Source: a virus
Virus record (IMG/VR): IMGVR_UViG_3300025732_003196
Location: 1 to 22,137 of that record
Reading direction: 5' to 3' (one strand)
DNA: 22,137 nt
Part shown: positions 2,508 to 17,556 of the stretch, one piece after another
How positions within the stretch are numbered: position 1 is the stretch's first letter
How the letters are laid out: every line of letters starts with the position of its first letter
The notes under the pieces: model-generated
Database searches by the model: none
Told to the model about the DNA's origin: nothing
The model's input: the letters and a program-made list of their open reading frames with translations, nothing else
Program-made: the position numbers and the translations under genes

Positions 2508-2740
2508 CAAAAGTTCTTTTAGAACGAGAAGGATATCGCTTTGTTGAAGTTGGTATCCTTGAAATCAACGGTAAACCTGATTATCGTTTACAAAAACAAA
2601 ATCACTATACCAAACGCTGGAATGACATTTATCTTTTTGATAATGGTTTACAATGTACTACTGCAATGGAAGACATTGAGTATGCGCGTTGGCTCGACCC
2701 AGACAGAGTACCTTGCTACGTTAAAGATGATGAAGATTAA
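2504..2740 (+). CDS. Small phage protein, 78 aa, unknown function
   Basis: ATG at 2504 overlaps the preceding stop (ATGA). It encodes 78 soluble residues with alternating strands (LLEREGYRFVEVGILEINGK, then a YLFDNG turn), a helix (TTAMEDIEYARWLD) and an acidic tail (KDDED). No signal peptide or membrane segment, and no known motif. It shares the early-type promoter at 2241-2269 with its neighbour. Confidence 0.7.
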   Translation: MTKVLLEREGYRFVEVGILEINGKPDYRLQKQNHYTKRWNDIYLFDNGLQCTTAMEDIEYARWLDPDRVPCYVKDDED

Positions 2741-2746
2741 GATATA

Positions 2747-2754
2747 GATAAATA
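2747..2754 (+). promoter_or_regulatory. Late-promoter-like box GATAAATA
   Basis: GATAAATA differs from the T4 late octamer at the first base only. It lies 21 bases before the third HNH gene, like the boxes before the other two. The same variant occurs before the porin gene at 18985-18992, which supports its use as a promoter. Confidence 0.4.
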
Positions 2755-2775
2755 ATATAAAATAATCTATATCTC

Positions 2776-3162
2776 ATGTATAGAAACCAAGCAGATGCCA
2801 ATGCCAAAGCAAGAGAACTTTATAGGAAAAACACTGAAAAGTACTCTACAAAAAATAAAGAAAAGCGAGAAAGTCGTAGAAAATTAATTTATGAAGCACT
2901 TGGAAATAAGTGTGTTGAATGTGGATCCACTTCTAATCTAGAAATAGATCACATAAATCCTTCTCTAAAAGAAAATAGAATTTCTCCATTGGCACAAGGA
3001 TTATCAAAAACATTAAAAGACGATAATCTTCAACTATTATGTCATTGTTGTCATACTAAAAAATCAAAATATCAAAGAAATGCTGCTTGGAATTTGTTTA
3101 GAAGTTTGTCTCTTGAAGAGCAAAATAAATTGATACAAAAAGAAAAAGAGAAGGATGATTAA
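2776..3162 (+). CDS. HNH homing endonuclease (HNH-3)
   Basis: 128 residues. A long, highly charged N-terminal helix (about 1-40) leads into a compact HNH domain: C46-x2-C49, the D58-H59 pair in LEIDHI, N84 (DDNLQLLC), C89, C92-H93 and K95. There is no N-terminal zinc finger, unlike HNH-1 and HNH-2. A basic tail (QKEKEKDD end) follows. It is preceded by a GATAAATA box, stands alone, and is followed by a structured non-coding stretch and a terminator. No tRNA could be folded across its 3' end. Confidence 0.82.
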   Translation: MYRNQADANAKARELYRKNTEKYSTKNKEKRESRRKLIYEALGNKCVECGSTSNLEIDHINPSLKENRISPLAQGLSKTLKDDNLQLLCHCCHTKKSKYQRNAAWNLFRSLSLEEQNKLIQKEKEKDD

Positions 3163-3261: not shown

Positions 3262-3290
3262 AAGTGGGTTGCATAAACCCACTTTTTTTA
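3262..3290 (+). terminator. Rho-independent terminator before glycan cassette
   Basis: AAGTGGGTT (3262-3270) pairs perfectly with AACCCACTT (3276-3284) around a five-base loop, followed by a run of T. This closes transcripts from the tRNA/HNH zone. The A-run on the left side could let it work on the other strand too, but no gene faces it. Confidence 0.9.
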
Positions 3291-3297
3291 GTATAAT
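3269..3297 (+). promoter_or_regulatory. Possible promoter overlapping the terminator
   Basis: A perfect -10 hexamer TATAAT (3292-3297) follows the terminator T-run. At 17 bases upstream is TTGCAT (3269-3274), a weak -35 that lies in the hairpin loop. It would be the natural start for the long cassette, whose first ATG is at 3320. Confidence 0.45.
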
Positions 3298-3319
3298 ATT
3301 AAAAAATCTTTCAGTTTTT

Positions 3320-4108
3320 ATGACATACTATATTGCAAGCGAAAATAGTGGAGACGGATTTGGATCTCAATTTCTTTCTAGAATTGCTGGAATAATTTAT
3401 GCAAACTATCATAACTTAAATTATGTTCATGTTCCAATTAGATCTTTAGTACTTGATGATAAACCATTTGTTTCTAGAGATAATGAGATAAAAGATGCTA
3501 ATATTTTGTTAGAAAATATTATGAAAAATTTTGAAATTAAATTTATAGATGAACTTTCTAGTTCAGATGTTGTTAATACTTACAGTCGAGTAGATATTTA
3601 CAATCAACTAAATTTAAATCCAAATTTGTATTATACTGATGATGTTTTAAATAAATTTAAAGCATCATATAGCATAAATCCTCCAGATTATTACGTACCT
3701 AATAAACTAAATGTATCCATTCACATAAGAAGAGGAAACGATATTAGTAGTGATAATTTTAATAGGTATGTAAGTTCTGATATTTATGATAATATTATTG
3801 AAAAAATATTAGATAGATATGATGAATCAATAATTAATATTTTTTCTTGGAATGATCCTTGCTTAAAAGTTAAATCAGATAGGATCAAATATCATACTGT
3901 CTCCGATGGAGGAGAAGAATTTTTATCACACTTTAACGGATTAGTTCATTCTGATATTTTATTGGTGGGGGCAAGCACTTTTAGTCTTTGTGCTGGATTT
4001 TTTAATAAAAATATAGTTTTGTGTAATAAAAATATACATCGTATGATCGTTAATCCTTACGTTCCTTCATGGGAAGATAATTATCAAAAAATTATCGAAA
4101 AGGTTTGA
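3320..4108 (+). CDS. Fucosyltransferase-like glycosyltransferase (GT11-related, divergent)
   Basis: 262 residues from ATG at 3320; the frame is open back to 3269 but that start lies in the terminator. Residues 135-141 read HIRRGND, the GDP-fucose-binding motif of alpha-1,2/1,6-fucosyltransferases and protein O-fucosyltransferases. The N-terminal SGDGFGSQFLSRIAG stretch matches the glycine-rich G-x-G-x-Q acceptor-side motif of the same group. Near the end, SDILLVGASTFSLCAGF resembles the family's ANSSFSWW motif but is altered. It is the first gene of the cassette, directly before the GDP-fucose genes. A role in fucose transfer is likely; linkage and acceptor are unknown. No signal or membrane segment, so cytoplasmic. 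Confidence 0.7.
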   Translation: MTYYIASENSGDGFGSQFLSRIAGIIYANYHNLNYVHVPIRSLVLDDKPFVSRDNEIKDANILLENIMKNFEIKFIDELSSSDVVNTYSRVDIYNQLNLNPNLYYTDDVLNKFKASYSINPPDYYVPNKLNVSIHIRRGNDISSDNFNRYVSSDIYDNIIEKILDRYDESIINIFSWNDPCLKVKSDRIKYHTVSDGGEEFLSHFNGLVHSDILLVGASTFSLCAGFFNKNIVLCNKNIHRMIVNPYVPSWEDNYQKIIEKV

Positions 4109-4153: not shown

Positions 4154-5158
4154 ATGAAAAAAGTACTAATTACAGGAATCACTGGGCAAGATGGATCTTA
4201 TCTTGCTGAACTATTACTCGAAAAAGGTTATGAGGTTCATGGGATTGTCAGAAGAGCATCCCTTATTAACACTCATCGTATTGACCACATTTATAATCGT
4301 ATTCATCTCCATTACGGCGACCTTACTGATTCTACCAATCTTATAAAGGTAATTCAGAAAGTTAAACCAAATGAGATTTATAATCTTGGTGCCCAGAGTC
4401 ATGTAAAGGTATCTTTTGAAATACCTGAATATACTGGACAAGTTGATGCGCTTGGAACTCTTCGTATTCTTGAAGCAGTTCGTATTCTTGGAATGGAGAA
4501 TGATGTTCGTATCTATCAGGCGTCTACTTCTGAACTTTACGGTAAAGTTCAAGAGATTCCTCAAACGGAAACAACTCCTTTCTATCCAAGAAGTCCTTAT
4601 GGTGTTGCTAAGATCTATGGATACTGGATTGTCAAAAACTATCGTGAGGCATATGGAATGTATGCTTGCACGGGGATTCTTTTTAATCATGAATCTCCTC
4701 GCCGTGGTGAGACATTTGTTACTCGTAAGATTACCAGAGGTTTCAAGGCAATGTCTGAGGGTAGGCAAACGGTTCTTAAACTGGGCAATCTAAATGCTCT
4801 TCGTGACTGGGGACACGCAAAGGATTATGTTGAGGCAATGTGGTTAATGCTTCAACAAGATGAACCTGATGACTTTGTGATTGCTACTGGTAAACAATAT
4901 TCAGTTCGTGAGTTTGTAGAAAGAGCAGCACCTTACTTTGGAATGGATATTGAATGGCAGTTTACTGATCAAGGAACTGAAGTTGGAATTGATAAGAACA
5001 CTGGATTAGTGCGTGTAATTGTTGATCCTAAATATTTCCGACCTGCTGAAGTAGAGACCTTATTAGGTGATGCCACTAAGGCAAAACAGAAATTAGGTTG
5101 GGAACCTAAGATTTCTTTTGATCAATTAGTTGAGGAAATGTGTATTAATGAAACTTGA
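4154..5158 (+). CDS. gmd: GDP-mannose 4,6-dehydratase
   Basis: 334 residues, an extended short-chain dehydrogenase. It converts GDP-D-mannose to GDP-4-keto-6-deoxy-D-mannose, the first committed step toward GDP-fucose and other 6-deoxy sugars. It shows the NADP-binding motif [10 protein letters not shown] (residues 7-16), the family signature [15 protein letters not shown] (33-47), catalytic T125 and E127 in STSELYGK, and Y149-x3-K153 in RSPYGVAK. The [16 protein letters not shown] block is also characteristic. The length is slightly short of the common 340-370, ending soon after the usual LGW motif. The next gene, fcl, starts within its last 11 bases. It appears less AT-rich than fcl, which suggests a separate origin. 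Confidence 0.95.
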
Positions 5159-6092
5159 TTCTAAAATATATGTTGCTGGGCATCGTGGGTTGGTTGGTTC
5201 TGCGATTATTAGACGATTAAATGAACAAGGTTATAATAATATTATAACTAAAGATAAAAAAGATTTGGACCTAAGAAGACAGTTAGACGTAGAGAATTTT
5301 TTTGATTATCATAAACCAGATTATGTTTTTCTTGCTGCTGCACGAGTTGGTGGAATCGGATACAATAAATCTTGCCCTGCAGATTTTATAAGAGATAATT
5401 TGCAAATACAGACTAATGTAATTGATAGTGCTTATCGCAATAAATGCAAAAAACTTGCTTTTCTTGGATCCGCTTGCATCTATCCAAAACATGCACCTGT
5501 TCCCATAAAAGAAGAGTATTTAATGATATCAGCTTTAGAGGAAACTAATATTGCATATTCTCTTGCCAAAATTTCTGGTTATATAATGTGCAAAAAATAT
5601 TCTGAGCAGTATGGATTCAATACAATATCAGTAATGCCTAATAATCTTTATGGTATTAATGACAATTTTAATATTGAAAGATGTCATGTAATTCCAAGTT
5701 TTATTAATAAATTTATTACTGCTAAAGATAATAATAGTCCAACTGTTACTTGTTTAGGTGATGGAAGTCCAACTAGAGAATTTTTATTTTCCGATGATCT
5801 TGCAGATGGACTTATATTTTTGATGAATAATTATGATGATTCTGATATAATAAATATTGGACCAGATAGAGAAGTGAGTATTAAAGAACTTTCTGAAATT
5901 ATTGCTAAACATGTTGGATATAAAGGATCTATTATTTGGGATACTGAAAAACCAAATGGAACTCCGAGAAGAGCATTAGATACTTCTAAAATAAAATCTT
6001 TAAACTGGATGGCTAAAACTAGTTTAGATGAAGGACTTAGAATTACTATTGAGTGGTTTATGAACAACAGGAGAACATATGAAAAAGTATAA
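5148..6092 (+). CDS. fcl: GDP-L-fucose synthase (or GDP-L-colitose synthase)
   Basis: 314 residues from ATG at 5148, overlapping gmd. It is a bifunctional epimerase/reductase that turns GDP-4-keto-6-deoxy-mannose into GDP-L-fucose using NADPH. Motifs: [10 protein letters not shown] at 11-20; S108 and C110 in GSACIYP; Y137-x3-K141 in [11 protein letters not shown]180 in CHVIPSF. These match the S107/C109/Y136/K140/H179 set of E. coli Fcl. The LYGINDNFN and [14 protein letters not shown] blocks are also typical. The related ColC enzyme acts on the 3-deoxy version of the same substrate. Because a ColD-like gene follows, this protein could serve either or both. Sequence resembles Fcl most. Confidence 0.9.
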
Positions 6093-7236
6093 ATGGCCTC
6101 TTATGAAAAATACTTTATCTTTTATGGATAGAGTAAAACTTGCTAAATTTGTTTTAACATCAGATAAATTTACTCAGGGTGAAAAGGTAGAGGAATTTGA
6201 AAGAAAATGGTCTCAATGGTTAGGTTGCAAACACTCAATATATGTAACTTCCGGAAGTACTGCTAATTTTCTTCTAGTTGCTGCAGTAATAGAAAAATAT
6301 AATCTTAAAAAAGGCGATAAAGTTTTACTCCCAACTTGTACTTGGGTTACAAATATCAATCCAATTTTTCAACTTGGATTAACTCCAGTTTTTTGTGATG
6401 TTAATCTAGAAGATTATAGTTTTGATGTTGAAAATCTAAAAAGAATATCACAAAAACATCCTGATATTAAACTCATATTTGTCACACATCTTCTTGGCAT
6501 TCCTGCAAACGTTCCAAAATATAAGGAGTATTTTCCCAATGCAGTTTTTCTAGATGATGTTTGCGAATCTCATGGATGTGTTATGGGCAGTAAAGTTGGT
6601 TCCAATAGTGTCGGATCAACATTTAGTTTTTACTTCGGTCATCATATGTCAACTATTGAAGGAGGGATGATATCTACGAATGATAGTGATCTTTATGATC
6701 TTATGAAACTAAAAAGGTCTCATGGACTTGCAAGAGTTTCTGATAAATTTAAAGAGTATATTCAAAAGAATCCAGAGATTGAAGAGTCATTTTTGTTTGT
6801 GACTGATGGATATAATTTTAGGAATACTGAAATTGGAGCAGTTCTTGGAATCAATCAACTAAAAAGACTTGATAAGTTTATCCAGATACGAAGAGAAAAC
6901 TATAGGAGATATGTTGAAATCGTTAATAAATCAGATAAACTTTTTAAGGTAACTTATAACTATGGTAATAGTTCTTTCTGTTTTCCTTTTATATGTAAGA
7001 CTAAAGAGATAAAAACAGAATTAATTAACCTACTTGAAAAGTATGGTGTGGAGTATCGTCCAGTTGTTGGAGGTAATTTATTAAGACAACCATATTTGAA
7101 TTATGAAGTTGAGTGTGCATCCAAAACTTTAAATTCTGATATAATTCATGAGAATGGAATTTACATTGGTAATAATCAGTTTGTGGGCAACCAAGAAATG
7201 AGAATTTTAGAAAATATTATTAATGAACTGGGATAA
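6079..7236 (+). CDS. colD: GDP-4-keto-6-deoxymannose 3-dehydratase, ColD type
   Basis: 385 residues, PLP-dependent DegT/DnrJ/EryC1 fold. In sugar aminotransferases of this family a lysine binds PLP; here the position holds H188 (SFYFGHHMSTIEGGM, 183-197). This is the same residue and number as the catalytic His188 of E. coli ColD, which removes the 3-hydroxyl of GDP-4-keto-6-deoxymannose on the way to GDP-colitose. Other matches to ColD are SSG/TSGSTANFL (58-65), DDVCESHGC (159-167), EESFxFV with GYNFRNTE, and GINQLKRLDKFIQIRREN. Family length is about 388, so it is complete. A good ribosome site (AGGAG) lies before the ATG, and it overlaps fcl by 14 bases. RfbH-like enzymes also use His, but act on CDP sugars; gmd next door favours the GDP route. 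Confidence 0.85.
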   Translation: MKKYKWPLMKNTLSFMDRVKLAKFVLTSDKFTQGEKVEEFERKWSQWLGCKHSIYVTSGSTANFLLVAAVIEKYNLKKGDKVLLPTCTWVTNINPIFQLGLTPVFCDVNLEDYSFDVENLKRISQKHPDIKLIFVTHLLGIPANVPKYKEYFPNAVFLDDVCESHGCVMGSKVGSNSVGSTFSFYFGHHMSTIEGGMISTNDSDLYDLMKLKRSHGLARVSDKFKEYIQKNPEIEESFLFVTDGYNFRNTEIGAVLGINQLKRLDKFIQIRRENYRRYVEIVNKSDKLFKVTYNYGNSSFCFPFICKTKEIKTELINLLEKYGVEYRPVVGGNLLRQPYLNYEVECASKTLNSDIIHENGIYIGNNQFVGNQEMRILENIINELG

Positions 7237-7239
7237 TCT

Positions 7240-8094
7240 ATGAAAATTAATCTTTATAATGATTTTCATAATGGGGACATCTTTTATTCAAGAATTATTA
7301 TTGAGCAACTCTTGAAGAATGGATTTGAGGTTTCCTATAATCACGGAATGAATCCAAAAATCTTGTCTGATTATGGCGACATTTATAATGGACCATTGAA
7401 TCCAAACATTCATGTGTCAAGAGGTGACAATAATTTTGAACAAAATATTATCAATACTTGGATTGGAAAAGAAGATGCTAAATTTGTAAAGGTCGATGCT
7501 TGTTCTTTCAGAGGATATGTGCCTCTTGCAAATGAAATCTTTGATTATTATGGAATCAAATATGATAATGAAGAGGACATTCTTCCAGTCGTAAGATTTA
7601 GTAATCTGTCATCAAATCAATTAGATAGAATAAGTGACATTTTGTATCCTTTTGGAATATCTTATGACAAGATTATTATGATATGTAATAATAATTGTTT
7701 ATCTGGGCAATCTGAAAACTTTGATTTTGATCCAGTTATAAGTTATCTCAGTCAAAATTATCCAAAATGTTTGTTTTTAGTCACTAATAATACCTCAGTG
7801 ATTAATGAAAATATAATCAGTGTCTCTACGATTACTGAAAAAGTTGACTGTGATTTATTGTTGATTTCTTATATCTCTAAAGTTTGTGATATAATAGTTG
7901 GTAGAGCATCTGGACCATATTGTTATACTCATATTAAAGAAAATCTTCTAGATGATAAAAAAACTTATATCAGTTTTACCTATTATTCTAGTGAAGGAAT
8001 CTGGTATCATAACTCTAAATCAAAACAAGTATGGTCAGATAATTATGATCTAAATCATATTTGTGAAACTATCGAAAATGAAATTAAAATCTAA
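7240..8094 (+). CDS. Unrecognised cassette protein, possibly GT-B glycosyltransferase, 284 aa
   Basis: 284 residues starting two bases after the colD stop. The N-terminus MKINLYNDFHNGDIFYSRI resembles the opening of GT9/heptosyltransferase-like proteins (a strand followed by G-D and a helix). A later stretch, KVCDIIVGRASGPYCYTHIK (about 220-240), resembles the D-x-x-x-G-x-x-S-G nucleotide-sugar-binding part of GT-B enzymes. There are no membrane segments or signal peptide. A glycan role is inferred from context and these weak similarities; no firm family can be named. Confidence 0.6.
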   Translation: MKINLYNDFHNGDIFYSRIIIEQLLKNGFEVSYNHGMNPKILSDYGDIYNGPLNPNIHVSRGDNNFEQNIINTWIGKEDAKFVKVDACSFRGYVPLANEIFDYYGIKYDNEEDILPVVRFSNLSSNQLDRISDILYPFGISYDKIIMICNNNCLSGQSENFDFDPVISYLSQNYPKCLFLVTNNTSVINENIISVSTITEKVDCDLLLISYISKVCDIIVGRASGPYCYTHIKENLLDDKKTYISFTYYSSEGIWYHNSKSKQVWSDNYDLNHICETIENEIKI

Positions 8095-8104
8095 GGAAAG
8101 TAAA

Positions 8105-8458
8105 ATGGAAACAAATTTTGGTGAAGTGATTGAAAGATGTCTCAAGGAGACTATCAACTCAGTTCTTTCTAGGAGAGAGTTGACTGAGGTTGAATATATT
8201 CAAACAGATAATCTTGGTGAAGTCGTTGAGAAACTTGCTATCCTTCATATTAGAACTTGGATGTTAGAGGATGCAATTCAAGATGCAACTACGGATCAGG
8301 AAATTGCAGAACTTAAGAGAAAGATTGATACTTGTTTTAAAGTTAAGAGACCGAAACTGGTTCAAGCAATTAATCTATTAGTTGAAGATTCGATTGCAAA
8401 CAATAAGTCTCTTCGTGAGGATTCTGTAAAGTTATATAAAGGTGTTTCTAATGAGTAA
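8105..8458 (+). CDS. Small helical protein of glycan clusters, 117 aa, unknown function
   Basis: ATG at 8105 is preferred because AAGGA sits just before it; an in-frame ATG at 8063 lies within the upstream gene. The 117 residues are nearly all helical. The central part (TDNLGEVVEKLAILHIRTW, then MLEDAIQDATTDQEIAELKR, KIDTCFKVKRPKLVQAINLL) resembles, by arrangement, small helical proteins such as DUF4254 and DUF6165 that occur within lipopolysaccharide clusters. Their biochemical role is not known to me. It overlaps the next gene by 8 bases, so its product is made together with the fucosyltransferase that follows. Confidence 0.65.
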   Translation: METNFGEVIERCLKETINSVLSRRELTEVEYIQTDNLGEVVEKLAILHIRTWMLEDAIQDATTDQEIAELKRKIDTCFKVKRPKLVQAINLLVEDSIANNKSLREDSVKLYKGVSNE

Positions 8459-9260
8459 GGTTAAGTTAAATCTTATTGGAGATTCATTTACACATCTTAC
8501 TCACGGCAATAAAGGATACTCAGTTCATGGTAAAGAGTCAAAAACTATGGAATGGGTATTTGATAATAATGTTGGTACATCTTTCTATGTTGATGGGAAA
8601 ATGTATGAGGCATTTTCTGATAATGTCAAAGGTGTAAAATATGGATGGTTACTTGAATCTAAATATGTCACTCCAGAAATTGTTAGTGATGTAAGAAATA
8701 AGTATAAAGAATACTTTGAAGTTTTTAGATATATCTTTACACACAATAAAGAATTTCTTGATCTTGACGAAAGATTTAAGTGGTGTCCTCCTAATGGATC
8801 TTGGATTAAGGAACCAAAGATCTATCCAAAATCAAAGATAATTTCATTTATCACATCAAATAAAAACTCTACTCCCGGTCATAAATTGAGACTTCAATGG
8901 GTAGATATGATTGGCGATCAAGTAGATCTTTATGGTAGAGGATTTAAAGAGATCTCAAGTAAAGAAGAAGGTTTATGTGATTATATGTTCTCTGTTGCAA
9001 TCGAAAATGGTTTCTATGAATCTTATTACACTGAAAAAATTCTAGATTGTTTTGCTACTGGAACTATACCTGTGTATAAAGGAACTCCTGACATTGGAAA
9101 TTTCTTTAATCTTGAAGGTATCGTTGAACTTTCTGAAGAGTTTGAAGTTTCTGAGGAAATATACTATAATAAGATGGAAGCAATTGAAGATAACTTGGAA
9201 AGAGTTAAGAAAATAGAAGTATTGGAAGATTTTATTTTAAGAACATATGATATCGTTTAA
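8451..9260 (+). CDS. GT10 fucosyltransferase (alpha-1,3/1,4 type)
   Basis: 269 residues from ATG at 8451. The C-terminal half has the GT10 donor-binding signature: FSVAIENGFYESYYTEK (180-196) followed by ILDCFATGTIPVYKGTPDI (197-215), with E185, N186, E195 and K196 at the positions that hold GDP-fucose in this family. The N-terminal acceptor domain (1-150) is less conserved, as usual. GT10 enzymes move fucose from GDP-L-fucose to GlcNAc or glucose, as in Lewis-type antigens of Helicobacter. It lacks an N-terminal anchor and the amphipathic tail repeats of H. pylori enzymes. It lies between the GDP-fucose genes and a GT11 gene, which overlaps its end by 14 bases. Confidence 0.88.
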   Translation: MSKVKLNLIGDSFTHLTHGNKGYSVHGKESKTMEWVFDNNVGTSFYVDGKMYEAFSDNVKGVKYGWLLESKYVTPEIVSDVRNKYKEYFEVFRYIFTHNKEFLDLDERFKWCPPNGSWIKEPKIYPKSKIISFITSNKNSTPGHKLRLQWVDMIGDQVDLYGRGFKEISSKEEGLCDYMFSVAIENGFYESYYTEKILDCFATGTIPVYKGTPDIGNFFNLEGIVELSEEFEVSEEIYYNKMEAIEDNLERVKKIEVLEDFILRTYDIV

Positions 9261-10050
9261 CCATCTTGGAAATCTTGGAAGACTTGGAAACCAAATGTTT
9301 CAATATTCTGCTTTAAAGGGCATAGCATTAAAACATGGTTATGATTATTGTATTCCTCCTAGAAGTTTGTTTGGGGTAAAAGATCATAATGTAAAATATT
9401 CCGAAAGTATTCTTTATGATATTTTTGATTTGGAAAAAAATAATAATATTGAAATCACCTCAAATGCTATTTTATACGAAAACCAGTTTCATGTTAATGA
9501 AGATATTTTAGAAAAGTGTCCCGATAAAGTAGATCTTTATGGATATTTTCAATCAGAAAAATACTTTTTGCACATAAAAGACGAAATAAAGAAAGATTTT
9601 ACTTTTAAATCAAATTTGCTTTTAGAATGTAAAAAAATTTTTAATGATTTTTTAGTAAATCAAGAAGTTATTTCTTTGCATATAAGACGTGGTGATTATA
9701 TTATCAATGATAATCATCCTCTCCAATCAATTGAGTATTATAAAAATGCATTAAAATATTTTAATGAAAATATTCCGGTTTTAGTTTTTTCTGATGATCC
9801 AACTTGGTGCTCAGAGCAAAAAATGTTTGAATCTGATCGTTTTATGATATCTGAAAAAAATACTACAGATATTGATCTTTGTTTGATGACGTTGTGTGAC
9901 TATCATATAATAGCAAATAGTTCTTTTAGTTGGTGGGGTGCTTGGTTAGCAGATAGTAAAAAAGTTATAGCACCTAAAAAATGGTTTGCTGGTGACTGTA
10001 TAAATCATAATACCAGAGATTTGTATTGTTTGGATTGGATTTTAATATAG
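9247..10050 (+). CDS. GT11 alpha-1,2-fucosyltransferase
   Basis: 267 residues with all the GT11 motifs: GNLGRLGNQMFQYSALKG (8-25), HIRRGDY (145-151), VFSDDPTWC (180-188) and HIIANSSFSWWGAWL (220-234). The family transfers L-fucose in alpha-1,2 linkage to galactose, making the H-type structure, and is found in bacterial O-antigen clusters. The length is typical of bacterial forms (about 280-300), complete at both ends, and cytoplasmic. Its start overlaps the GT10 gene by 14 bases. Together with Gmd and Fcl it makes a self-contained fucosylation set. The acceptor is unknown. Confidence 0.93.
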   Translation: MISFNHLGNLGRLGNQMFQYSALKGIALKHGYDYCIPPRSLFGVKDHNVKYSESILYDIFDLEKNNNIEITSNAILYENQFHVNEDILEKCPDKVDLYGYFQSEKYFLHIKDEIKKDFTFKSNLLLECKKIFNDFLVNQEVISLHIRRGDYIINDNHPLQSIEYYKNALKYFNENIPVLVFSDDPTWCSEQKMFESDRFMISEKNTTDIDLCLMTLCDYHIIANSSFSWWGAWLADSKKVIAPKKWFAGDCINHNTRDLYCLDWILI

Positions 10051-10059
10051 GAGAAAAAA

Positions 10060-10872
10060 ATGAAAAAAGTGCAGCATTTTATTTTTAGTTGGTCAAGAGT
10101 TACAGAAGATGTAAAAAAAATTCAAAAAGATCTTCAAGATTCTGGGTATCAAGTTGATGTAATTAACTGTGATGATAATTCACAGGATGGATGGATTAAT
10201 ATTGGTAATGATTATTGGTTGTACGGACAATTTTTTACTTGTATAAATCATTTTAATTTTGATAATGATTATCTAAATGTAATGTTGGGTGATGTTGAAA
10301 CTGATAGTTACCCTGAACTTTTTAGGAGAACCGAAGAAGTCGTGAGTGAGGTTGAAAATGTTGGTATTTATGCACCAGATTATGGTAATAAAGAAAAATG
10401 TTGGTGGATTATTGATAATGTTTCTGTAGACAAATTTGATAATTATAATACTGTGGAATTTGATGATCCAAATCTTGTCGCTGGCACAATGTGCGATTTT
10501 TTCTATCTTACTATCCACAAAGATATTGTGGTTGAATATAAAGATTTTATTGATTTTCTTCTAAAAGAACATCCAGACTTTAAATTTTGGAAAGGTCATG
10601 GATGGGGTATTGATTTAATCCTTTGTGCCTTTGCACATATGCAAAATAAATTTGTAATTAGGGATAAGAAAATTGTCTTAGGTCATGGTATTGATAATGG
10701 TCATTCTGGTCCAGATTCTTCAATTAACTATAATAAATTAATAGAAGAATACAATAAATTTATGGGATCAAAATCTCAAAGAGCTCAAAGTAAAATAAAA
10801 GCAGCTCTTGATAGGTGCCCTCCACACGAAAACAAAACTGTTTATACTACTATTGAGGAACTTTGGAAATGA
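10060..10872 (+). CDS. Putative glycosyltransferase, family unassigned, 270 aa
   Basis: 270 residues with a strong ribosome site (AGGAG) before the ATG. The opening (QHFIFSWSRVTEDVKKIQKD) and VDVINCDD resemble the first two strands of GT-A folds. NVMLGDVETDSYPELFRR at about 73-90 holds a D-x-E set where GT-A enzymes keep their metal-binding D-x-D. A region around 190-210 (KFWKGHGWGIDLILCAFAHM) resembles the W-G-x-D segment of GT2-type enzymes, and GHGIDNGHSG could hold the last metal ligand. The C-terminal 40 residues are basic and helical. Sits between the H-type fucosyltransferase and the GT6 gene. A transferase role is likely but not proven. Confidence 0.65.
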   Translation: MKKVQHFIFSWSRVTEDVKKIQKDLQDSGYQVDVINCDDNSQDGWINIGNDYWLYGQFFTCINHFNFDNDYLNVMLGDVETDSYPELFRRTEEVVSEVENVGIYAPDYGNKEKCWWIIDNVSVDKFDNYNTVEFDDPNLVAGTMCDFFYLTIHKDIVVEYKDFIDFLLKEHPDFKFWKGHGWGIDLILCAFAHMQNKFVIRDKKIVLGHGIDNGHSGPDSSINYNKLIEEYNKFMGSKSQRAQSKIKAALDRCPPHENKTVYTTIEELWK

Positions 10873-11327
10873 ATAAGAATTCTAAAATTTTTGTTGCTGG
10901 TAATTTTAATGCTTATCTTTTTCACCCAAGAGATTGGATATATTGGGGATATAGAGAAGATTTAATAAATTTTTTTGATATCCCATTTCAAGTAAATGAA
11001 GAATGCCAAAGATTAAATGTCAATAAACAAAAATGTGAAAACAATGGAGAATATTTTAAACTTTTCACTAGACCAGAAACATATTTGGGGTCATATTATG
11101 CAAGTAGATTTGATGAGAGAGTTGTAAAGATGGTAAATAACCAAAGTGAATATCTTTATGATGATGCTCCTAAAATTGAAGAAGCATATGCTGTTAGTAA
11201 TGAAATTATGACTAAACTTTTTAAATCATTTCCAAGAACAGGTATTAACTTTGTTTGGCCAAAAAATAATATTTGGCATTTTCCAATCTCATTGCAGCAT
11301 GAGATTTGGCATGAAGAAGGTATGTAA
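10869..11327 (+). CDS. Unrecognised cassette protein, 152 aa
   Basis: ATG at 10869 overlaps the previous stop (ATGA); a TTG six bases upstream is also in frame. The 152 residues are rich in aromatics (FHPRDWIYWGYREDLINFF; NFVWPKNNIWHFPISLQHEIWHEE). No glycosyltransferase or nucleotide-binding motif could be seen, and there are no membrane segments. Repeated W-H pairs near the end could bind sugar or metal; this is only a guess. Context places it in the fucose part of the cassette. Confidence 0.6.
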   Translation: MNKNSKIFVAGNFNAYLFHPRDWIYWGYREDLINFFDIPFQVNEECQRLNVNKQKCENNGEYFKLFTRPETYLGSYYASRFDERVVKMVNNQSEYLYDDAPKIEEAYAVSNEIMTKLFKSFPRTGINFVWPKNNIWHFPISLQHEIWHEEGM

Positions 11328-11345
11328 TTTTATTTTTTTTTTACT

Positions 11346-12050
11346 ATGAAAATCTGTATCCTTAATATAGCGACAAATAAATATATTCAATTTGTTGAAT
11401 CTTTACTTGATTCTGTAGACGAAAATTTTTTAAATGGACACGATATTTCTGCATTAGTGTTTACTAACCATGAAATTGAAGAATCTTCGGATAATGTAAA
11501 GATTTCTCAAATTGATCATGAACCTTGGCCGATTCCCACTCTAAAAAGATATCATTATTTTCTTAAAGAAAGGGAGTATATTTCTCAATTTGATTATTGC
11601 TTTTATATGGATGTTGATATGAGAATTGAAGGAAAAGTTGGTGATGAAATTTTAGGAGATCTTGTAGCAACTCAACATCCTGGATTCTGGTTTAAGACTA
11701 ATCAAGAGTTTTCATATGAACGCCGTCCAGAGTCAACTGCATATGTTCCTTTTGGTGAAGGAAAGATGTATTATGCAGGTGGATTCAATGGTGGAAAACC
11801 TGAACATTTTCTAAAAATGTCAGAAACTATTGTATCGAATATTGAAAAAGACTTTGAGAAAGGATTGATTGCAGTGTGGCATGATGAGTCACATATGAAT
11901 CGTTATTTGATTGATAATCCTCCCACTGTAGAATTGAATTCTTCTTATTGTTATCCAGAAGCAGTTCGATTCAATCCTGGTGGATGGAATGTTCCTTTTG
12001 AACCAAAGATTGTTGCTCTTGAAAAAAATCATTCTCAAGTTCGCTCATGA
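11346..12050 (+). CDS. GT6 glycosyltransferase (ABO blood-group transferase family)
   Basis: 234 residues. All recognisable GT6 blocks are present: FYMDVDMRIE with the metal-binding D89-V-D91; ATQHPGFWF (108-116); YERRPESTAYVP (124-135); YYAGGFNGG (142-150); and AVWHDESHMNRYL (176-188), the family's donor/acceptor loop containing E181. The family transfers Gal or GalNAc in alpha-1,3 linkage to galactose, in the ABO enzymes to galactose already carrying alpha-1,2-fucose. Many bacterial members carry N-x-N in place of D-x-D; this one keeps D-x-D as in vertebrate enzymes. It has no membrane anchor. The nearby GT11 gene would supply the expected acceptor. The next gene starts within the stop (ATGA). 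Confidence 0.9.
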   Translation: MKICILNIATNKYIQFVESLLDSVDENFLNGHDISALVFTNHEIEESSDNVKISQIDHEPWPIPTLKRYHYFLKEREYISQFDYCFYMDVDMRIEGKVGDEILGDLVATQHPGFWFKTNQEFSYERRPESTAYVPFGEGKMYYAGGFNGGKPEHFLKMSETIVSNIEKDFEKGLIAVWHDESHMNRYLIDNPPTVELNSSYCYPEAVRFNPGGWNVPFEPKIVALEKNHSQVRS

Positions 12051-12799
12051 TTATAGACTTACTTGATGTTCCTGTTTACTACATTAATCTCGATAGTGAT
12101 GAAGAGAAGAGAAAATCTACAGAGACTCTTCTCAAAAGAACGGGGTTTAGAAATGTAATCAGAGTTTCTGCAATCTTTCATCCAAAAGGTAGAATTATTG
12201 GATGTGCTCGTTCACATTATGAGGTCTTAAAAGAAGCAAAACCACCATTCATTATCATTGAAGATGACTGTGCTCTCAATAAAGACTTTGTAAATGAGAT
12301 AAAAGTCCCAGATGATTCTGATGCACTTTACCTGGGAATCTCTCACTGGGGTCGATATTTGAATCACTCTGGACCATATGTTCATTATGAGAAAGTTGAT
12401 GATGATATTGTAAGAGTTTATAACATGCTTGCAACACATGCAATTATGTATTTGTCACAATCATATGTTGACATATGCAAAAGAATATCATATCATTATG
12501 GATATGAAGTAGAAGGACATCTTGACATTGGATTTGCAGAAATCCATAAATTTTATAAAGTTTATAGTTATAATGAACCCCTTCTTAGACAATATGATTG
12601 GAGTGCTGTAACATCCGGAAAATTGAGCGAAGTCTCAATAGACAAGATGAAATCCGAATCATTGTTTAATAGTATTTTGAAATCAGATGAAAATTATTAT
12701 AAACTTAATTCTGAATTTAAATCTCCCATTAAACCACTTATAGAGATGAGAGATGTAAATGGAATTCCTGGATATTATTTACCGACGAGGATAATGTGA
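12047..12799 (+). CDS. GT25-like glycosyltransferase
   Basis: 250 residues. The N-terminus PVYYINLDSDEEKR (9-22) is the GT25 opening (LPS beta-1,4-galactosyltransferase type). RIIGCARSHYEVLKEA (49-64) matches the G-C-x-x-S-H-x-x-x-x block, and FIIIEDDC (68-75) carries the metal-binding acids. The substrate cannot be assigned, since GT25 members move galactose, glucose or other sugars. The C-terminus ends RDVNGIPGYYLPTRIM; a related ending occurs as a remnant at 13624-13704. It is joined by ATGA to the GT6 gene and by an overlapping GTG to the next gene, so all three are co-translated. Confidence 0.82.
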   Translation: MIIDLLDVPVYYINLDSDEEKRKSTETLLKRTGFRNVIRVSAIFHPKGRIIGCARSHYEVLKEAKPPFIIIEDDCALNKDFVNEIKVPDDSDALYLGISHWGRYLNHSGPYVHYEKVDDDIVRVYNMLATHAIMYLSQSYVDICKRISYHYGYEVEGHLDIGFAEIHKFYKVYSYNEPLLRQYDWSAVTSGKLSEVSIDKMKSESLFNSILKSDENYYKLNSEFKSPIKPLIEMRDVNGIPGYYLPTRIM

Positions 12800-13614
12800 A
12801 AATATTTACATTTACTTTTAATAGACCTGATATTTTAGAGATACAGTATAAAACTTTTAAAAAATATTGTAAAAATGATTTTGAATTTATTGTCATTCAT
12901 GACAGTAGAAATGAAGAATATGTAGATGAATTTTCAAGTATTTGTGAAAAAAATAATTTTAAATTTTATCATCATAAATCCAGAGCAGGTAAACAACCTA
13001 GTGAATATCATAGCGATGTTTTAATGTGGACATATAAAAATATTGTCTGTAAAAAATACATTGATGATATTATTTTCTTTTTAGATCATGATATTTTTAT
13101 GGTTGACTATTTGGACATATTAAAATATATTGATAAATTTGATATGGTCACTTTTTTTCAGAGAAGACCAGATCCTGGTGAACACATAAAATATCCAAAA
13201 ATTTCCAACTCAATATCAATTGATGATTCAATTTTGTATTATGCTTGGCCTGGATTTTGTATATTTAAAAATAGTAAATTAAAAGATAAACCTTTTGATT
13301 TTATGTGTAAACTGCCAAGTGAACTTTCCGAACTTCCAGAAAATTTACGACAAAATTTAGATAGTGGAGGAGGAACATACAAGTTATTTAAAGATAAGTC
13401 TTTATTGATTAAGAATGTAGGATTTGAGCATATTAAAATGTATAATGGATTTGAAGTAATTAATAATCTAGTTAATAACGGTCACGATTACTTATTTTTG
13501 TGTGATAGAAAATTTTTACATTATAAAAATGCTTCAAATTGGCATACTTTTTATAGCGTAGTTGATACCGACAAGACAAATATTTTATTCAAAATATTTG
13601 AAGATATTAATTGA
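12796..13614 (+). CDS. GT-A-like glycosyltransferase, paralogue of the gene at 16771
   Basis: 272 residues with a GTG start at 12796, inside the stop of the GT25 gene. The opening FTFTFNRPDILEIQYKTF and IDDIIFFLDHDIFMVDYL (D97-H-D99) are typical of a GT-A nucleotide-sugar-binding core. The C-terminal DRKFLHYKNASNWHTFYS closely resembles LDCKFLHYRAGTNWHTQSS in the gene at 16771, and the N-termini also match (NRPDxxEIQ), so the two are paralogues. Donor and acceptor unknown. The gene is very AT-rich. It is followed by a 91-base gap with a gene remnant. Confidence 0.75.
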   Translation: MKIFTFTFNRPDILEIQYKTFKKYCKNDFEFIVIHDSRNEEYVDEFSSICEKNNFKFYHHKSRAGKQPSEYHSDVLMWTYKNIVCKKYIDDIIFFLDHDIFMVDYLDILKYIDKFDMVTFFQRRPDPGEHIKYPKISNSISIDDSILYYAWPGFCIFKNSKLKDKPFDFMCKLPSELSELPENLRQNLDSGGGTYKLFKDKSLLIKNVGFEHIKMYNGFEVINNLVNNGHDYLFLCDRKFLHYKNASNWHTFYSVVDTDKTNILFKIFEDIN

Positions 13615-13705: not shown

Positions 13706-14653
13706 ATGTATATTTCTTCTTGTCCTCTTCGAGTATCTTTGTTTGGTGGATCAACAGATAATCCATACTTTATTGAAAAATATGGATTTGGATCTGTGAT
13801 TAGTTTTAGTTGTAACTTGAAAACTTACATTACTCTTCATGAAGATAAACTTGGATATAATATGCAAGGTCGTAAGTATATCGTAAATTATTCTAAAAGA
13901 GAGGAGACTGAATATATTGTTGATATTAAAAATGAACTTGTTCGTATAGTTTTAAATTATTTTGGATGCTTTCCACTTACTGTTAGTATGACTAGTGATG
14001 CTTATTCGCAAGGAAGTGGACTTGCATCATCATCTTCTTATATTATTTCTCTCATTAAATGTATTTCAATGTTTCGTGATTTACATTTAACTGATATTGA
14101 AATATGTAAACTTGCTCTTAAATTGGAGCAAGAAATAAATCCTTATTGCGGATATCAAGATCCTTATGGGTGTGGTATTGGTGGATTTAAAAAAATTGAT
14201 TTTGAAAAAGGTGGTATTATTAAATATGACTTTTTATCTACTGATTTGTTTAAGCATTATGACACACATTTAGTCTTTACTGGTGTAACTAGAAATTCTA
14301 AAAATGTTCTTCAAGATGTAACTTTAAATATCGATAAGTCATTGCCTTTATTGAAAACGGTTGATGATGCTTATGATGCTTTAAGATATAAAGATTATTC
14401 TAAGTTTTTGCAGTTACTAAACTATAGTTGGGAACAGAAAAAGCAAACTAGCTCATTAATTACTGAAAATGAAGAAATTAAAATCATAGATAAAATTCTC
14501 ACTGAAAGTGAAGATGTTATTGCTCATAAACTTTGTGGAGCTGGTAATGGTGGGTTCTTTCTTGTTTTTTCAAAAATAAACAGCTTGAAAATTCCATATA
14601 AATCGATTAAAATAAAAGTCGAATCTAATGGCGTTGTTGGACATAGGTTATGA
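13706..14653 (+). CDS. hddA: D-glycero-D-manno-heptose 7-phosphate kinase-like GHMP kinase (HddA type)
   Basis: 315 residues, a GHMP-family sugar kinase. Motifs: CPLRVSLFGGSTDNPYF (6-22), the HddA-type opening; the ATP loop QGSGLASSSSYI (102-113); and the third motif HKLCGAGNGGFFLVFS near the C-terminus. HddA phosphorylates D-glycero-alpha-D-manno-heptose 7-phosphate at C1. Related sugar 1-kinases (L-fucokinase type) share the fold, so fucose salvage is an alternative, but the directly following GmhA-like gene argues for heptose. Length is near the family's usual 340. It overlaps the next gene by four bases (ATGA). Confidence 0.82.
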   Translation: MYISSCPLRVSLFGGSTDNPYFIEKYGFGSVISFSCNLKTYITLHEDKLGYNMQGRKYIVNYSKREETEYIVDIKNELVRIVLNYFGCFPLTVSMTSDAYSQGSGLASSSSYIISLIKCISMFRDLHLTDIEICKLALKLEQEINPYCGYQDPYGCGIGGFKKIDFEKGGIIKYDFLSTDLFKHYDTHLVFTGVTRNSKNVLQDVTLNIDKSLPLLKTVDDAYDALRYKDYSKFLQLLNYSWEQKKQTSSLITENEEIKIIDKILTESEDVIAHKLCGAGNGGFFLVFSKINSLKIPYKSIKIKVESNGVVGHRL

Positions 14654-15153
14654 ATCCGTTTACAGAATACATTAAAGCACTTCAGAGTGCTCATATTGAG
14701 GAGCAATTTAAAAAGTTTAGAAATGCTTTTGATAGATATCATAATATTATCATTCTTGGAAATGGTGGTAGTAACGCAGTAGCATCTCATATTTCACAGG
14801 ATTATGTGAAATTTAATAATAAAAATTCGATGGTATTTTCCGACCCATCAATGCTGACATGTTTTATTAATGATTTTGGAATGGAAAATGCATATTGCAA
14901 ATTCCTTCAGTATTATGCAAAATCAGATACTCTTTGTATTTTAATTAGTTCCGGTGGAGAATCTAAAAACATTGTAAATTGCATCAAATATTGTGAAAAT
15001 AATTCTATACCATATGGTATTTTAACTGGATTTGGATTATCAAATAAAGCAAGAAGTATTGCAAATAATGCTCTTTGGGACTATCATATAGATAGTAGTG
15101 ATTATGGAATTGTTGAGTGTGTCCACCAAATTTTTCTTCATGGTGTAGTATGA
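14650..15153 (+). CDS. gmhA: Phosphoheptose isomerase (GmhA-like SIS protein)
   Basis: 167 residues with a SIS fold. It would convert sedoheptulose 7-phosphate to D-glycero-D-manno-heptose 7-phosphate, the first step to nucleotide-heptoses. Seen: IILGNGGSNAVASHISQDY (34-52), the phosphosugar loop; ILISSGGESKNI, the second serine-rich loop; and the C-terminal ECVHQIFLHGVV with the histidine used in catalysis. The usual catalytic glutamate (E65 in E. coli) appears as D51. The protein is shorter than the typical 190 and ends right after the last helix motif. It overlaps the next gene by four bases. Substrate follows from the neighbouring kinase and phosphatase genes. Confidence 0.85.
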   Translation: MNPFTEYIKALQSAHIEEQFKKFRNAFDRYHNIIILGNGGSNAVASHISQDYVKFNNKNSMVFSDPSMLTCFINDFGMENAYCKFLQYYAKSDTLCILISSGGESKNIVNCIKYCENNSIPYGILTGFGLSNKARSIANNALWDYHIDSSDYGIVECVHQIFLHGVV

Positions 15154-15872
15154 GATATTGTTTTGATATTGATGGAACTCTTTGTCATACTCCAAATAAT
15201 GAGCTAGGAAAACCTGATTATGCAAATGCAAAACCTTTTCCATTTATGGTGGAACAGGTTAATCGTTTATATGAAGAAGGTCATTATATTATTATTCAAA
15301 CTGCTAGGGGAAAATCATCTGGAATAGATCATAGTAACCTCACTAAAAGACAACTTGATACTTGGGGATACAAGTATCATGATTTATTTCCCATGTTTTC
15401 TAAACCAAACGCTGATATTTTTATTGATGATAAAGCCATTAACTTTGACGAGTGGAAACAAAAACAACCTTTAATCAGAGGAATTACTGCGGGATCGTTT
15501 GATTTAATTCATCCCGGATATGTAAAAATGTTTAGAGATTGTAAAATGTATTGCAATCATTTTACAATTGCTTTGCATGAAGATCCATCTTTAGAAAGAC
15601 ATAATAAACTATCTCCTATACATTCTATTGAAGAAAGGTTAGAAATACTTAGTTCTATTAAGTATATCGATGATATTGTGGTTTATCATACTGAAGACAA
15701 GTTTCATGATTATTTAAAAAGCGGTAAATACAATATTCGTTTTCTTGGTGATGATTATAGTGATGGGTCTTATACTGGTAAAGATATTCCCATAAAAGTA
15801 ATTTTTGTTGATAGGAGTCATGGATACTCTACAACTGAATTAAAAAGAAAAATTTTTAAATCTTGGAGGTAA
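15150..15872 (+). CDS. Fused HAD phosphatase and nucleotidyltransferase (heptose pathway)
   Basis: 240 residues from ATG at 15150, which overlaps the gmhA stop. Residues 1-105 are a small HAD phosphatase: YCFDIDGTLC (nucleophile D6, D8), QTARG (motif II, T51) and DIFIDDKA (D93-D94). Residues 108-240 are a cytidylyltransferase-fold domain: RGITAGSFDLIHPGYVKMF, EERLEILSSIKYIDDIV and GYSTTELKRKI, as in the C-terminal half of HldE and in TagD. Two roles that are normally separate genes, removal of a phosphate (GmhB) and transfer of the nucleotide, would be joined here. The catalytic HxGH motif reads H121-P-G-Y124, so the second histidine is tyrosine. The nucleotide (ADP, GDP or CDP) cannot be told. 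Confidence 0.83.
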   Translation: MRYCFDIDGTLCHTPNNELGKPDYANAKPFPFMVEQVNRLYEEGHYIIIQTARGKSSGIDHSNLTKRQLDTWGYKYHDLFPMFSKPNADIFIDDKAINFDEWKQKQPLIRGITAGSFDLIHPGYVKMFRDCKMYCNHFTIALHEDPSLERHNKLSPIHSIEERLEILSSIKYIDDIVVYHTEDKFHDYLKSGKYNIRFLGDDYSDGSYTGKDIPIKVIFVDRSHGYSTTELKRKIFKSWR

Positions 15873-15877
15873 AAAAA

Positions 15878-16774
15878 ATGAAGTCATTAGTAACAGGTGG
15901 TGCAGGATTTATTGGTTCCAATCTTGTAGATAAATTAATTGATTTGGGACATCAAGTTATTGTAATTGATGATGAAAGTGCAGAATCAAATGTTCAATTT
16001 TATTGGAATGATAATGCTTTAAACTACAAATATGATATTAGAGATTATAAAAATACTCGCCCTCTATATGATGGTGTTGATTATGTTTTTCATCTTGCGG
16101 CAGAATCAAGGATTCAACCAGCAATTGAAAATCCAATTAATGCGGTGAGTCTAAACTCTGTTGGTACATGTACTGTTCTTCAATGTGCTCGTGAAGCGGG
16201 TGTTAAACGTGTAATGTATTCATCCACTTCTGCTGGATATGGTATGAATCCTTTTCCGAATGATGAGACTCAACCTGATGATTGTTTGAATCCATACTCA
16301 GTATCTAAGGTAAACGGTGAAAAGTTATGTAAAATGTATACCGATTTATATGGACTTCCCACAGTTTCATTCAGATATTTTAATGTTTACGGTGAAAGAC
16401 AACCAGTTCGTGGTCAGTACGCTCCCGTAATTGGAATTTTTCTTAGACAACTTACTGCAGGAGAACCTCTTACTATTGTTGGTGATGGTGAGCAACGTAG
16501 AGATTTTACTTATGTTGGTGATGTTGTAAATGCAAATATTTTAGCGGCAACAAAAGATGTTAATGATGAAGTATTTGGTCAGGTTTATAATGTTGGTTCC
16601 GGTAAGAACTATTCAATTAATGAAATTGCTGGAATGATTTCTGATAATATTATCAATATTCCTCCTAGAATTGGAGAAGCAAGAACAAGTCTTGCAAATA
16701 ATCAAAAACTTCGTTCTACTTTTGGATGGGAACCCACTATGAAAATTGAAGATTGGGTTGGGAAACAACTATGA
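15878..16774 (+). CDS. NAD-dependent sugar-nucleotide epimerase/dehydratase
   Basis: 298 residues from ATG at 15878, with a strong ribosome site (GGAGG) before it; an earlier in-frame ATG is within the upstream gene. An extended short-chain dehydrogenase: TGGAGFIGSNL (6-16), VFHLAAESR (70-78), MYSSTSAGYG (113-122, catalytic S/T) and NPYSVSKVNGEKL (138-150, Y140 and K144). FRYFNVYGERQPVRGQYAPV resembles the UDP-glucose/UDP-GlcNAc 4-epimerase group (GalE, WbpP). It could instead modify the heptose made by the genes before it. Shorter than the usual 320-340; ends GWEPTMKIEDWVGKQL. Joined by ATGA to the next gene. Confidence 0.82.
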   Translation: MKSLVTGGAGFIGSNLVDKLIDLGHQVIVIDDESAESNVQFYWNDNALNYKYDIRDYKNTRPLYDGVDYVFHLAAESRIQPAIENPINAVSLNSVGTCTVLQCAREAGVKRVMYSSTSAGYGMNPFPNDETQPDDCLNPYSVSKVNGEKLCKMYTDLYGLPTVSFRYFNVYGERQPVRGQYAPVIGIFLRQLTAGEPLTIVGDGEQRRDFTYVGDVVNANILAATKDVNDEVFGQVYNVGSGKNYSINEIAGMISDNIINIPPRIGEARTSLANNQKLRSTFGWEPTMKIEDWVGKQL

Positions 16775-17556
16775 CAGTTCAAATTTTTACATCAGTAGTT
16801 AATCGACCAGATTTCGTAGAGATACAAAAAAAGTTATTTGATAAGTTTCTTACTGAAGATTATCAATTTAATGTTGTTGATGATTCTTTAGATGAAAATA
16901 TTTCTTTGGAGTTTAAACATATCTGCAAAAAATATAATATCGTTTACTATAGAAAGGATCAGGGAAATCGTAATAAAGATGAGAGTCGTTGGTCTGGCGC
17001 CAGACATGCTACAGAAACAATTCAATGGGCATTTGATGAGATTATCAAGAAAAAACATTATAAAGATTTAGTTTTATTTTTAGATTCTGATATGTTTTTA
17101 CTTGATGAGTTTAATATATCTGAATATATGAAAGACACTATTATTTCGGGATTACCTCAAATAAGAGGTCATGTTCGTTATATGTGGAATGGAATAATGT
17201 TTTTTGATATGGAAAAAGTGTTTAATACTGATCCCAATCTCAATTTTTCTGACGGTATGGTAGATGGTGAACTAACAGATATTGGAGGTCATTTTTATTA
17301 TTATTTTAAAAAAAATAATGTTATAATGAAAGAAACTGATGTAACTTACCCAACTCACTTTAAGGATATTGAAATTCAAAATGATGATATTACAAATGGA
17401 TTTAATTTTGAGTTGCATTTAGATTGTAAGTTTTTGCACTATCGAGCTGGAACTAACTGGCATACTCAAAGTAGTTGGAAAACTAAAAAAAATCCTCTGA
17501 TTAAAAAGGAAGAAGTCTTTAGTCAAATTGTTAAAAATTTTTTAATTGAAGTATGA
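16771..17556 (+). CDS. GT-A-like glycosyltransferase, paralogue of the gene at 12796
   Basis: 261 residues from ATG at 16771, overlapping the epimerase stop; an upstream in-frame ATG at 16753 is less likely. FTSVVNRPDFVEIQKKLF opens the fold, and KDLVLFLDSDMFLLDEF holds the metal-binding D105-S-D107. The C-terminus (DCKFLHYRAGTNWHTQ) matches the gene at 12796. A longer basic loop (NRNKDESRWSGARHATETIQ, about 66-85) may lie at the donor site. Donor sugar unknown. It overlaps the methyltransferase gene by four bases. Confidence 0.75.
   Translation: MTVQIFTSVVNRPDFVEIQKKLFDKFLTEDYQFNVVDDSLDENISLEFKHICKKYNIVYYRKDQGNRNKDESRWSGARHATETIQWAFDEIIKKKHYKDLVLFLDSDMFLLDEFNISEYMKDTIISGLPQIRGHVRYMWNGIMFFDMEKVFNTDPNLNFSDGMVDGELTDIGGHFYYYFKKNNVIMKETDVTYPTHFKDIEIQNDDITNGFNFELHLDCKFLHYRAGTNWHTQSSWKTKKNPLIKKEEVFSQIVKNFLIEV

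Follow-up and report, generated by a model that had tools for sequence, protein, structure and literature searches.

The window analyzed here is a linear IMG/VR virus record of cyanophage type (IMGVR_UViG_3300025732_003196), 22,137 bases in length, which carries a cluster of genes for sugar nucleotide enzymes and glycosyltransferases. The named records closest to it are T4-like phages of Synechococcus and Prochlorococcus, in keeping with the phage context proposed in a preliminary description of the sequence. Plus-strand open reading frames (ORFs) form a tight block of low G+C content (26-36%) between about 3.3 and 19.0 kb, in which all frames are intact and overlapping. The preliminary description had placed genes of glycosyltransferase families GT10, GT11 and GT6 in this block, with gmd and fcl upstream, and had taken GDP-fucose to be the only donor of a joint pathway. 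Profile searches keep each of the three glycosyltransferases in its named family, gmd scores over its equivalog cut-off, and an fcl-like gene for a short-chain dehydrogenase/reductase (SDR) is present. The idea of GDP-fucose as sole donor is not supported in that form, however, as the block also contains a ColD-like gene that had been missed, and all members of the clade to which the SDR belongs are neighbors of colD. The genes that bear on this question are as follows.

4154-5158, plus strand: gmd, GDP-mannose 4,6-dehydratase (NCBIfam equivalog TIGR01472, 556 bits against a cut-off of 415)
5130-6092 (start probably 5151), plus strand: fcl-like SDR (NF047922, 400 bits; matches to Fcl structures in the PDB)
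6079-7236, plus strand: predicted ColD-like GDP-4-keto-6-deoxymannose-3-dehydratase, dependent on pyridoxamine 5'-phosphate (PDB 2gms; His188 replacing the aminotransferase lysine)
8451-9260 (or from 8442), plus strand: GT10, alpha-1,3/1,4-fucosyltransferase-type, probably GT-B (PF00852, E 3.4e-8)
9247-10050, plus strand: GT11, alpha-1,2-fucosyl/colitosyltransferase-type (PF01531, E 6e-27; phrog_2644, E 4e-110)
11346-12050, plus strand: GT6, ABO transferase family (PF03414, E 1.4e-44, residues 5-233; DVD, AGG and WHDE motifs)

The ColD-like gene and the adjoining SDR

Pfam puts the 6079-7236 product in the DegT type, and its best solved relative is ColD (PDB 2gms, E 5e-63), a match that lies ahead of the next solved 3-dehydratases by nearly 100 bits and also well above the perosamine synthetases. 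Sugar 3-dehydratases have histidine at the position of the aminotransferase lysine (PMC8987622), and the FGHHMST segment of the window protein aligns with YSHHIAT of ColD, where the first histidine is the catalytic residue according to the PDB mutant 3b8x. This residue, H188, is kept without exception in ten phage homologs. The substitution of histidine for lysine, together with the scores, rules out an aminotransferase of the perosamine or PseC type. A CDP-type E1 (RfbH) is disfavored, its match being about 100 bits weaker (E 9e-32) and no cysteine being present in the 75 residues past H188, the stretch where E1 enzymes carry cluster cysteines.

The colD gene comes immediately after the SDR gene and overlaps it. 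It also adjoins gmd, which is likewise in the locus of 18 of the 20 other distinct homologs from phages, and relatives of the window ColD are matched in 78 phage records, Synechococcus phages accounting for 54. ColD-like genes in phages S-CAM7 (L260:8016-9149) and ACG-2014f (L259:7980-9173) adjoin gmd as well; their existing labels are CDP-4-keto-6-deoxy-D-glucose-3-dehydrase, aminotransferase or hypothetical. On a ColD tree, phage proteins and E. coli ColD fall into one set of 30 rows (Shimodaira-Hasegawa-like approximate likelihood ratio test, SH-aLRT, 100) standing apart from a large cellular family with the motif AHH that mostly lacks gmd nearby, a grouping that is suggestive rather than firm. 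On its sequence, the 6079-7236 product is predicted to be a ColD-type 3-dehydratase making the precursor of GDP-colitose (colitose being 3-deoxy-fucose). In the open-access literature, we found no paper that combines colitose, phage and cyanobacteria, and the titles of those on colitose and bacteriophages point to none concerned with cyanophages.

The gmd gene, whose product is 69-91% identical to its counterparts in related phages, is followed by the SDR. At 400 bits the SDR falls under the NF047922 cut-off of 500, which counts against an Fcl equivalog; the same cut-off is missed by the proteins of P-SSM2 (462) and S-SRM01 (474), so that this failure carries little weight. On the SDR tree, the window protein and four other phage proteins form a clade (SH-aLRT 100) in which all five genes adjoin colD, and a second clade of six members is entirely colD-positive, whereas the P-SSM2-type Fcl clade is mostly colD-negative. 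E. coli ColC groups with neither and sits on a separate long branch. Both colD-only clades retain the catalytic Ser107, Cys109, Tyr136, Lys140 and His179 (E. coli numbering), and they share S137, R283 and mostly A108, where A137, K283 and S108 are found in P-SSM2-type Fcl, E. coli Fcl and also E. coli ColC, which is thus without these changes. The window SDR has A108, S137 and R283 and departs from the P-SSM2 type beside the catalytic Cys and Tyr; we infer from the alignment that the changes may be an adaptation to an altered substrate such as a 3-deoxy sugar. Despite its tree position, the function of this SDR may be ColC-like, and its sequence is compatible with a GDP-L-fucose synthase or, more likely, a GDP-L-colitose synthase type. 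The SDR of L163, a contig filed under a Crocinitomicaceae metagenome-assembled genome, groups within the cyanophage Fcl clade; the contig also has a ColD (59%) and a GT10-profile match and is probably a mis-binned phage contig.

The three glycosyltransferases

Over its full length, the GT6 protein can be aligned with BoGT6a, its closest relative of solved structure (E 2e-48), and with human ABO transferase (E 4.5e-38). The motifs AGG, WHDES and DXD are found in all 61 distinct phage GT6 sequences (54 with DVD and 7 with DAD). BoGT6a, from Bacteroides ovatus, is a metal-independent enzyme with an NXN motif that moves N-acetylgalactosamine (GalNAc) onto 2'-fucosyllactose (PMC3961637). In the alignment BoGT6a has the catalytic Glu and AGG in common with the window enzyme, but carries NAN in place of DXD, whereas the human ABO transferases share DXD, with LGG in the A enzyme at the position of the phage AGG. 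In human numbering, residue 235 of the window GT6 is Gly and residues 266-268 are Ala-Gly-Gly, the corresponding residues of the A enzyme being Gly and Leu-Gly-Gly; the alignment agrees. Because it combines DXD and the catalytic Glu with the same AGG donor motif as BoGT6a, a GalNAc transferase, the phage GT6 is predicted to be metal-dependent and GalNAc-preferring, catalyzing an A-type reaction. A GT6 member mentioned in the preliminary description from a marine cyanophage can be traced: P-SSM2 has one, and GT6 genes in two cyanophages are counted in PMC3961637. In L065 the GT6 gene is immediately followed by a diverged second one (10708-11427, 35%), and two GT6 genes are also found in L047 and L059 (second copy 37%).

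In GT11, the sequence HIRRGDY satisfies the HxRRGDY motif, and the protein is 51% identical to P-SSM2 GT11 and 34% identical to WbgN of E. coli O55; a PDB sequence search with it gave no match. WbgN is itself a GT11 enzyme, an alpha-1,2-colitosyltransferase that can take GDP-fucose as well as GDP-colitose as donor (PMC12723683, PMC12409901), so that membership of GT11 is no bar to colitose. The GT10 assignment is the weakest of the three by profile, the Pfam match covering residues 129-216 only (the C-terminal part) with a score of 33.8 bits (cut-off 23.9). The protein matches Helicobacter pylori alpha-1,3-fucosyltransferase (HpFucT) by sequence (2nzw, E 5.5e-8), and E-N and T-E-K residues are invariant across 13 aligned phage GT10s. 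For a low-confidence structural model (mean predicted local distance difference test, pLDDT, 66), the top Foldseek matches are HpFucT structures 2nzx, 2nzy and 2nzw at a TM score of about 0.4, and VIA-align on the same model puts generic GT-B enzymes, not GT10, first. Judged by sequence, GT10 could use GDP-colitose or GDP-fucose. GT10 genes of S-SRM01 (L248:9001-9822), S-SM2 (L249:18001-18807) and S-SSM7 (L250:7902-8879) are labeled only as putative transferase.

Distribution of the gene set and the remainder of the cluster

The survey of GT6, GT11 and GT10 co-occurrence suggested in the preliminary description shows that GT11 with GT6 is common and that GT10 with GT6 is found in a single other record. 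GT11 is present in 69 of 80 IMG/VR GT6 loci, bearing out the coupling of the two families that had been proposed; in 68 of the 69 GT10 is absent, L061 (record G059) is the only locus with both GT11 and GT10, and the other 11 loci lack the two families. Among 80 GT10 loci, GT11 occurs in 45 and GT6 in none. When whole records are considered, GT10 is present in 1 of 81 GT6 records, and GT6 in none of 50 GT10 records or nine further GT10 phage records, although these GT10/GT6 co-occurrence counts are lower bounds since many records are fragments. For 31 of the GT6 records, the search for GT10 was run again using an alignment of GT10 sequences, with two GT10 records as positive controls, both of which were detected.

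Two recurrent modules can be recognized in this material. A gmd-SDR-colD-GT10-GT11 module occurs in L083, L084 and L087, and a gmd-SDR-colD-GT11-GT6 set in L020, L021, L065 and L069 and in the named phage ACG-2014f; gmd-SDR-colD-GT11 is kept in ACG-2014f and S-CAM7. Locus L020 has gmd, SDR, colD, GT11, the 10060-type gene and GT6 in common with the window, and L021 has gmd, SDR, the 3269-type gene, colD, GT11 and GT6. Module order is highly variable among the cyanophage loci. Made up of known cyanophage modules in mosaic fashion, the window cluster joins two recurrent ones and is no new kind of cluster. An assembly chimera is disfavored by the recurrence of the gene sets and of the GT10-GT11 adjacency in other loci. 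That GT10, GT11 and GT6 form a unique set is ruled out by G059/L061, which has all three together with gmd, SDR and colD. The full set, of which the preliminary description knew no earlier account, is not entirely new: most of it is present in ACG-2014f and all of it in G059/L061. Within the set, only GT10 and GT6 together is rare; GT11 with GT6 was already known in related cyanophages.

The lipopolysaccharide (LPS) cluster of P-SSM2 (AY939844, PSSM2_257-271) likewise has gmd and fcl upstream and then, in the same order as the window, GT11, two small genes, GT6 (61%), a GT25-like gene, an epimerase (64%) and GT25, so that the window cluster is syntenic with this kind of LPS-type cluster. P-SSM2 differs in having no GT10, no colD in the cluster and an Fcl from another clade, and the pair of genes that separates its GT11 from its GT6 is not homologous to the pair in the window. 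In ACG-2014f (NC_026927, gp223-gp235), gmd (75%), SDR (50%), colD (55%, annotated as aminotransferase), GT11 (48%), GT6 and GT25 lie in one block, but the GT6 is just 30% identical to that of the window, and GT10 was not found by tblastn. Record G059 has gmd, SDR, colD, two GT11 genes, GT10 and GT6 in one block, with a GT10 just 23% identical and an SDR from the ordinary Fcl clade. The colitose O-antigen clusters of E. coli O55 and O111 resemble the window in having the SDR (ColC) followed directly by ColD, as well as a separate gmd in O111 and the GT11 colitosyltransferase WbgN in O55. Unlike the window cluster, they are O-antigen operons of bacteria that include Wzx and Wzy, have no GT6 or GT10 annotated, and encode a ColC from another SDR branch.

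The remaining genes of the cluster are listed below.

3269-4108, plus strand: protein with an HIRRGND motif, reminiscent of the fucosyltransferase H-x-R-R-G-D, just before gmd
7240-8094, plus strand: protein without a Pfam match, kept beside GT10 in colD-positive phages (26-32% identity)
8063-8458, plus strand: small DUF4254-like protein (PF14063, E 1.7e-5, under the cut-off)
10060-10872, plus strand: protein between GT11 and GT6, with a 46% homolog in the same position in L020
10863-11327, plus strand: short protein between GT11 and GT6, from the ORF list, with no family match in Pfam or PHROGs
12047-12799, plus strand: GT25-like glycosyltransferase, usually found after GT6 (PF01755, E 2e-4, under the cut-off; 51% identical to PSSM2_269)
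12796-13614, plus strand: GT2-like glycosyltransferase (PF10111, E 6e-4, under the cut-off)
13706-15872, plus strand: heptose-phosphate block, with an HddA-like kinase (13706-14653), a GmhA-like isomerase (14650-15153) and a HAD plus cytidylyltransferase-like protein (15117-15872)
15863-16774, plus strand: nucleotide-sugar epimerase of the T4-GC 265 type (64% identical to PSSM2_270)
16753-18978, plus strand: end of the cluster, with a protein of no stated family, a methyltransferase (17553-18164) and a GT25 (18157-18978)

For the 3269-4108 product, neither Pfam nor PHROGs gave a match and a pattern scan found no relatives, but a 57% homolog sits after gmd and SDR in L021; its motif makes a further fucosyl- or colitosyltransferase-type enzyme possible. 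The DUF4254-like protein has counterparts 72-77% identical next to gmd/colD or GT10 elsewhere in phages, and in some loci it is better conserved than ColD or SDR (54-55%). In the heptose-phosphate block, the 15117-15872 product joins a HAD-type N-terminus to a C-terminus resembling cytidylyltransferases and RfaE domain II. Because this block recurs intact in L047, L059 and L079, a nucleotide-heptose is probably a second phage-made donor. The closing GT25 is 60% identical to PSSM2_271 and 78% identical to the GT25 of S-SRM01.

Upstream, the cluster is flanked by HNH-type endonuclease-like ORFs (568-1125, 1614-2057 and 2776-3162, in the region 568-3162) and by two tRNA genes, tRNA-Ile(tat) and tRNA-Met(cat); the sugar cluster of S-SM2 is also directly preceded by tRNA-Ile and tRNA-Met. 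The downstream flank, at 42-45% G+C, contains porin-like and pstS-like genes together with a small ORF resembling hli, the pstS and hli labels being read from the translations.

A putative colitose pathway and its alternatives

From the enzyme families, key residues, gene order and co-occurrence, we infer as the best explanation a mosaic cyanophage cluster that decorates a host-surface glycan, with GDP-colitose as donor and an H/Lewis-type branch capped by GT6, a reading to which we would give an even chance; the colitose product, the linkages, the acceptors, the joint action of the enzymes and the role are all part of this reading. GMD would form GDP-4-keto-6-deoxymannose, from which the ColD-like enzyme would take off the C3 hydroxyl, and the Fcl-type SDR would then epimerize and reduce the product to GDP-L-colitose, with GDP-L-fucose as a possible side or alternative product. 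GT11 would add colitose (or fucose) alpha-1,2 to galactose, GT10 would add the same sugar to a neighboring residue to give an H/Lewis-type branch, and GT6 would add a cap, most likely GalNAc, to the alpha-1,2-substituted galactose. As donor of GT11 and GT10, GDP-colitose appears to be at least as likely as GDP-fucose, since a ColD-like gene with the catalytic His lies directly after the fcl-like gene and the SDR belongs to a colD-only clade. A host glycan (LPS/O-antigen or lipid-linked) is the presumed acceptor because family searches recognized no flippase, polymerase or initiating transferase among the cluster genes, and its modification during infection could, for example, block superinfection. 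Remodeling of the host surface glycan is the likeliest role, and it has been suggested for the P-SSM2 cluster that it alters the host surface against other phages (PMC2984593).

A number of observations weigh against this explanation. GT10 and GT6 are almost never in one record, being found together only in the window and G059, which speaks against an obligate joint pathway. GT10 is also present in the complete genomes of S-SM2, S-T4 and S-SSM7, where no gmd exceeds the family cut-off, and so its donor may not come from a phage pathway. The window SDR is 43% identical to E. coli Fcl compared to 36% for E. coli ColC; it is therefore nearer to Fcl, and its product may be GDP-fucose. In addition, five phage rows in the ordinary P-SSM2-type Fcl clade are colD-positive, and within the 30-row ColD set E. 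coli ColD branches long and three phage rows carry AHH.

The first two of these observations, together with the variable module order, are what one would expect if there were no joint blood-group-like pathway and GT10 and GT11/GT6 acted on different glycans or residues, as parts of freely recombining cyanophage modules. We regard this as a serious, although not the favored, possibility, given that the GT10 and GT11 genes are overlapping neighbors in the window and adjacent in L083, L084 and L085, and that GT11 with GT6 is conserved. Somewhat doubtful, in our view, is a GDP-fucose pathway, in which GMD and Fcl would supply an H-type GT11, GT10 would add a Lewis branch, GT6 would place an A/B cap, and the ColD-like gene would serve a separate side branch. 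Such a pathway is consistent with the closeness of the SDR to Fcl and its retention of every Fcl catalytic residue, and with the many phages that have GT11 and GT6 with gmd and fcl but without colD. The overlap of colD with the SDR gene nevertheless argues against it, because the two enzymes would compete for the same intermediate, as does the exclusive linkage of the window SDR clade to colD and its departure from the P-SSM2 Fcl type near the catalytic Cys and Tyr. That the genes glycosylate the virion or other phage proteins rather than a host surface glycan seems improbable: such clusters can adjoin tail fiber genes (ACG-2014f, S-CAM7), but the set resembles O-antigen enzymes and is placed where P-SSM2 has its LPS cluster. 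PMC3037559 leaves room for LPS clusters being non-functional stuffer DNA for headful packaging; for the window this is very hard to reconcile with intact, overlapping frames and with catalytic residues conserved over diverged phages.

Returning to the colitose reading, a more specific and tentative proposal is that the glycan is a colitose counterpart of the blood-group A/Lewis structures, with Col-alpha-1,2-Gal, a GT6-added GalNAc or Gal cap and Col or Fuc added by GT10, and that the ColD-linked SDR lineages are a phage-evolved GDP-colitose synthase distinct from enterobacterial ColC; taken as a whole this is rather unlikely. If the colitose assignment is true, many T4-like cyanophages carry a GDP-colitose pathway whose present labels go no further than fucose synthesis, aminotransferase or hypothetical, and there is a concrete, cheap way to test what the long-noted cyanophage LPS clusters do. 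There would also be a phage family of metal-type (DXD) GT6 enzymes beyond those of vertebrates and a few DXD bacteria, possibly with a 3-deoxy-fucose acceptor, which would bear on the evolution of ABO-type transferases and be useful for glycan synthesis.

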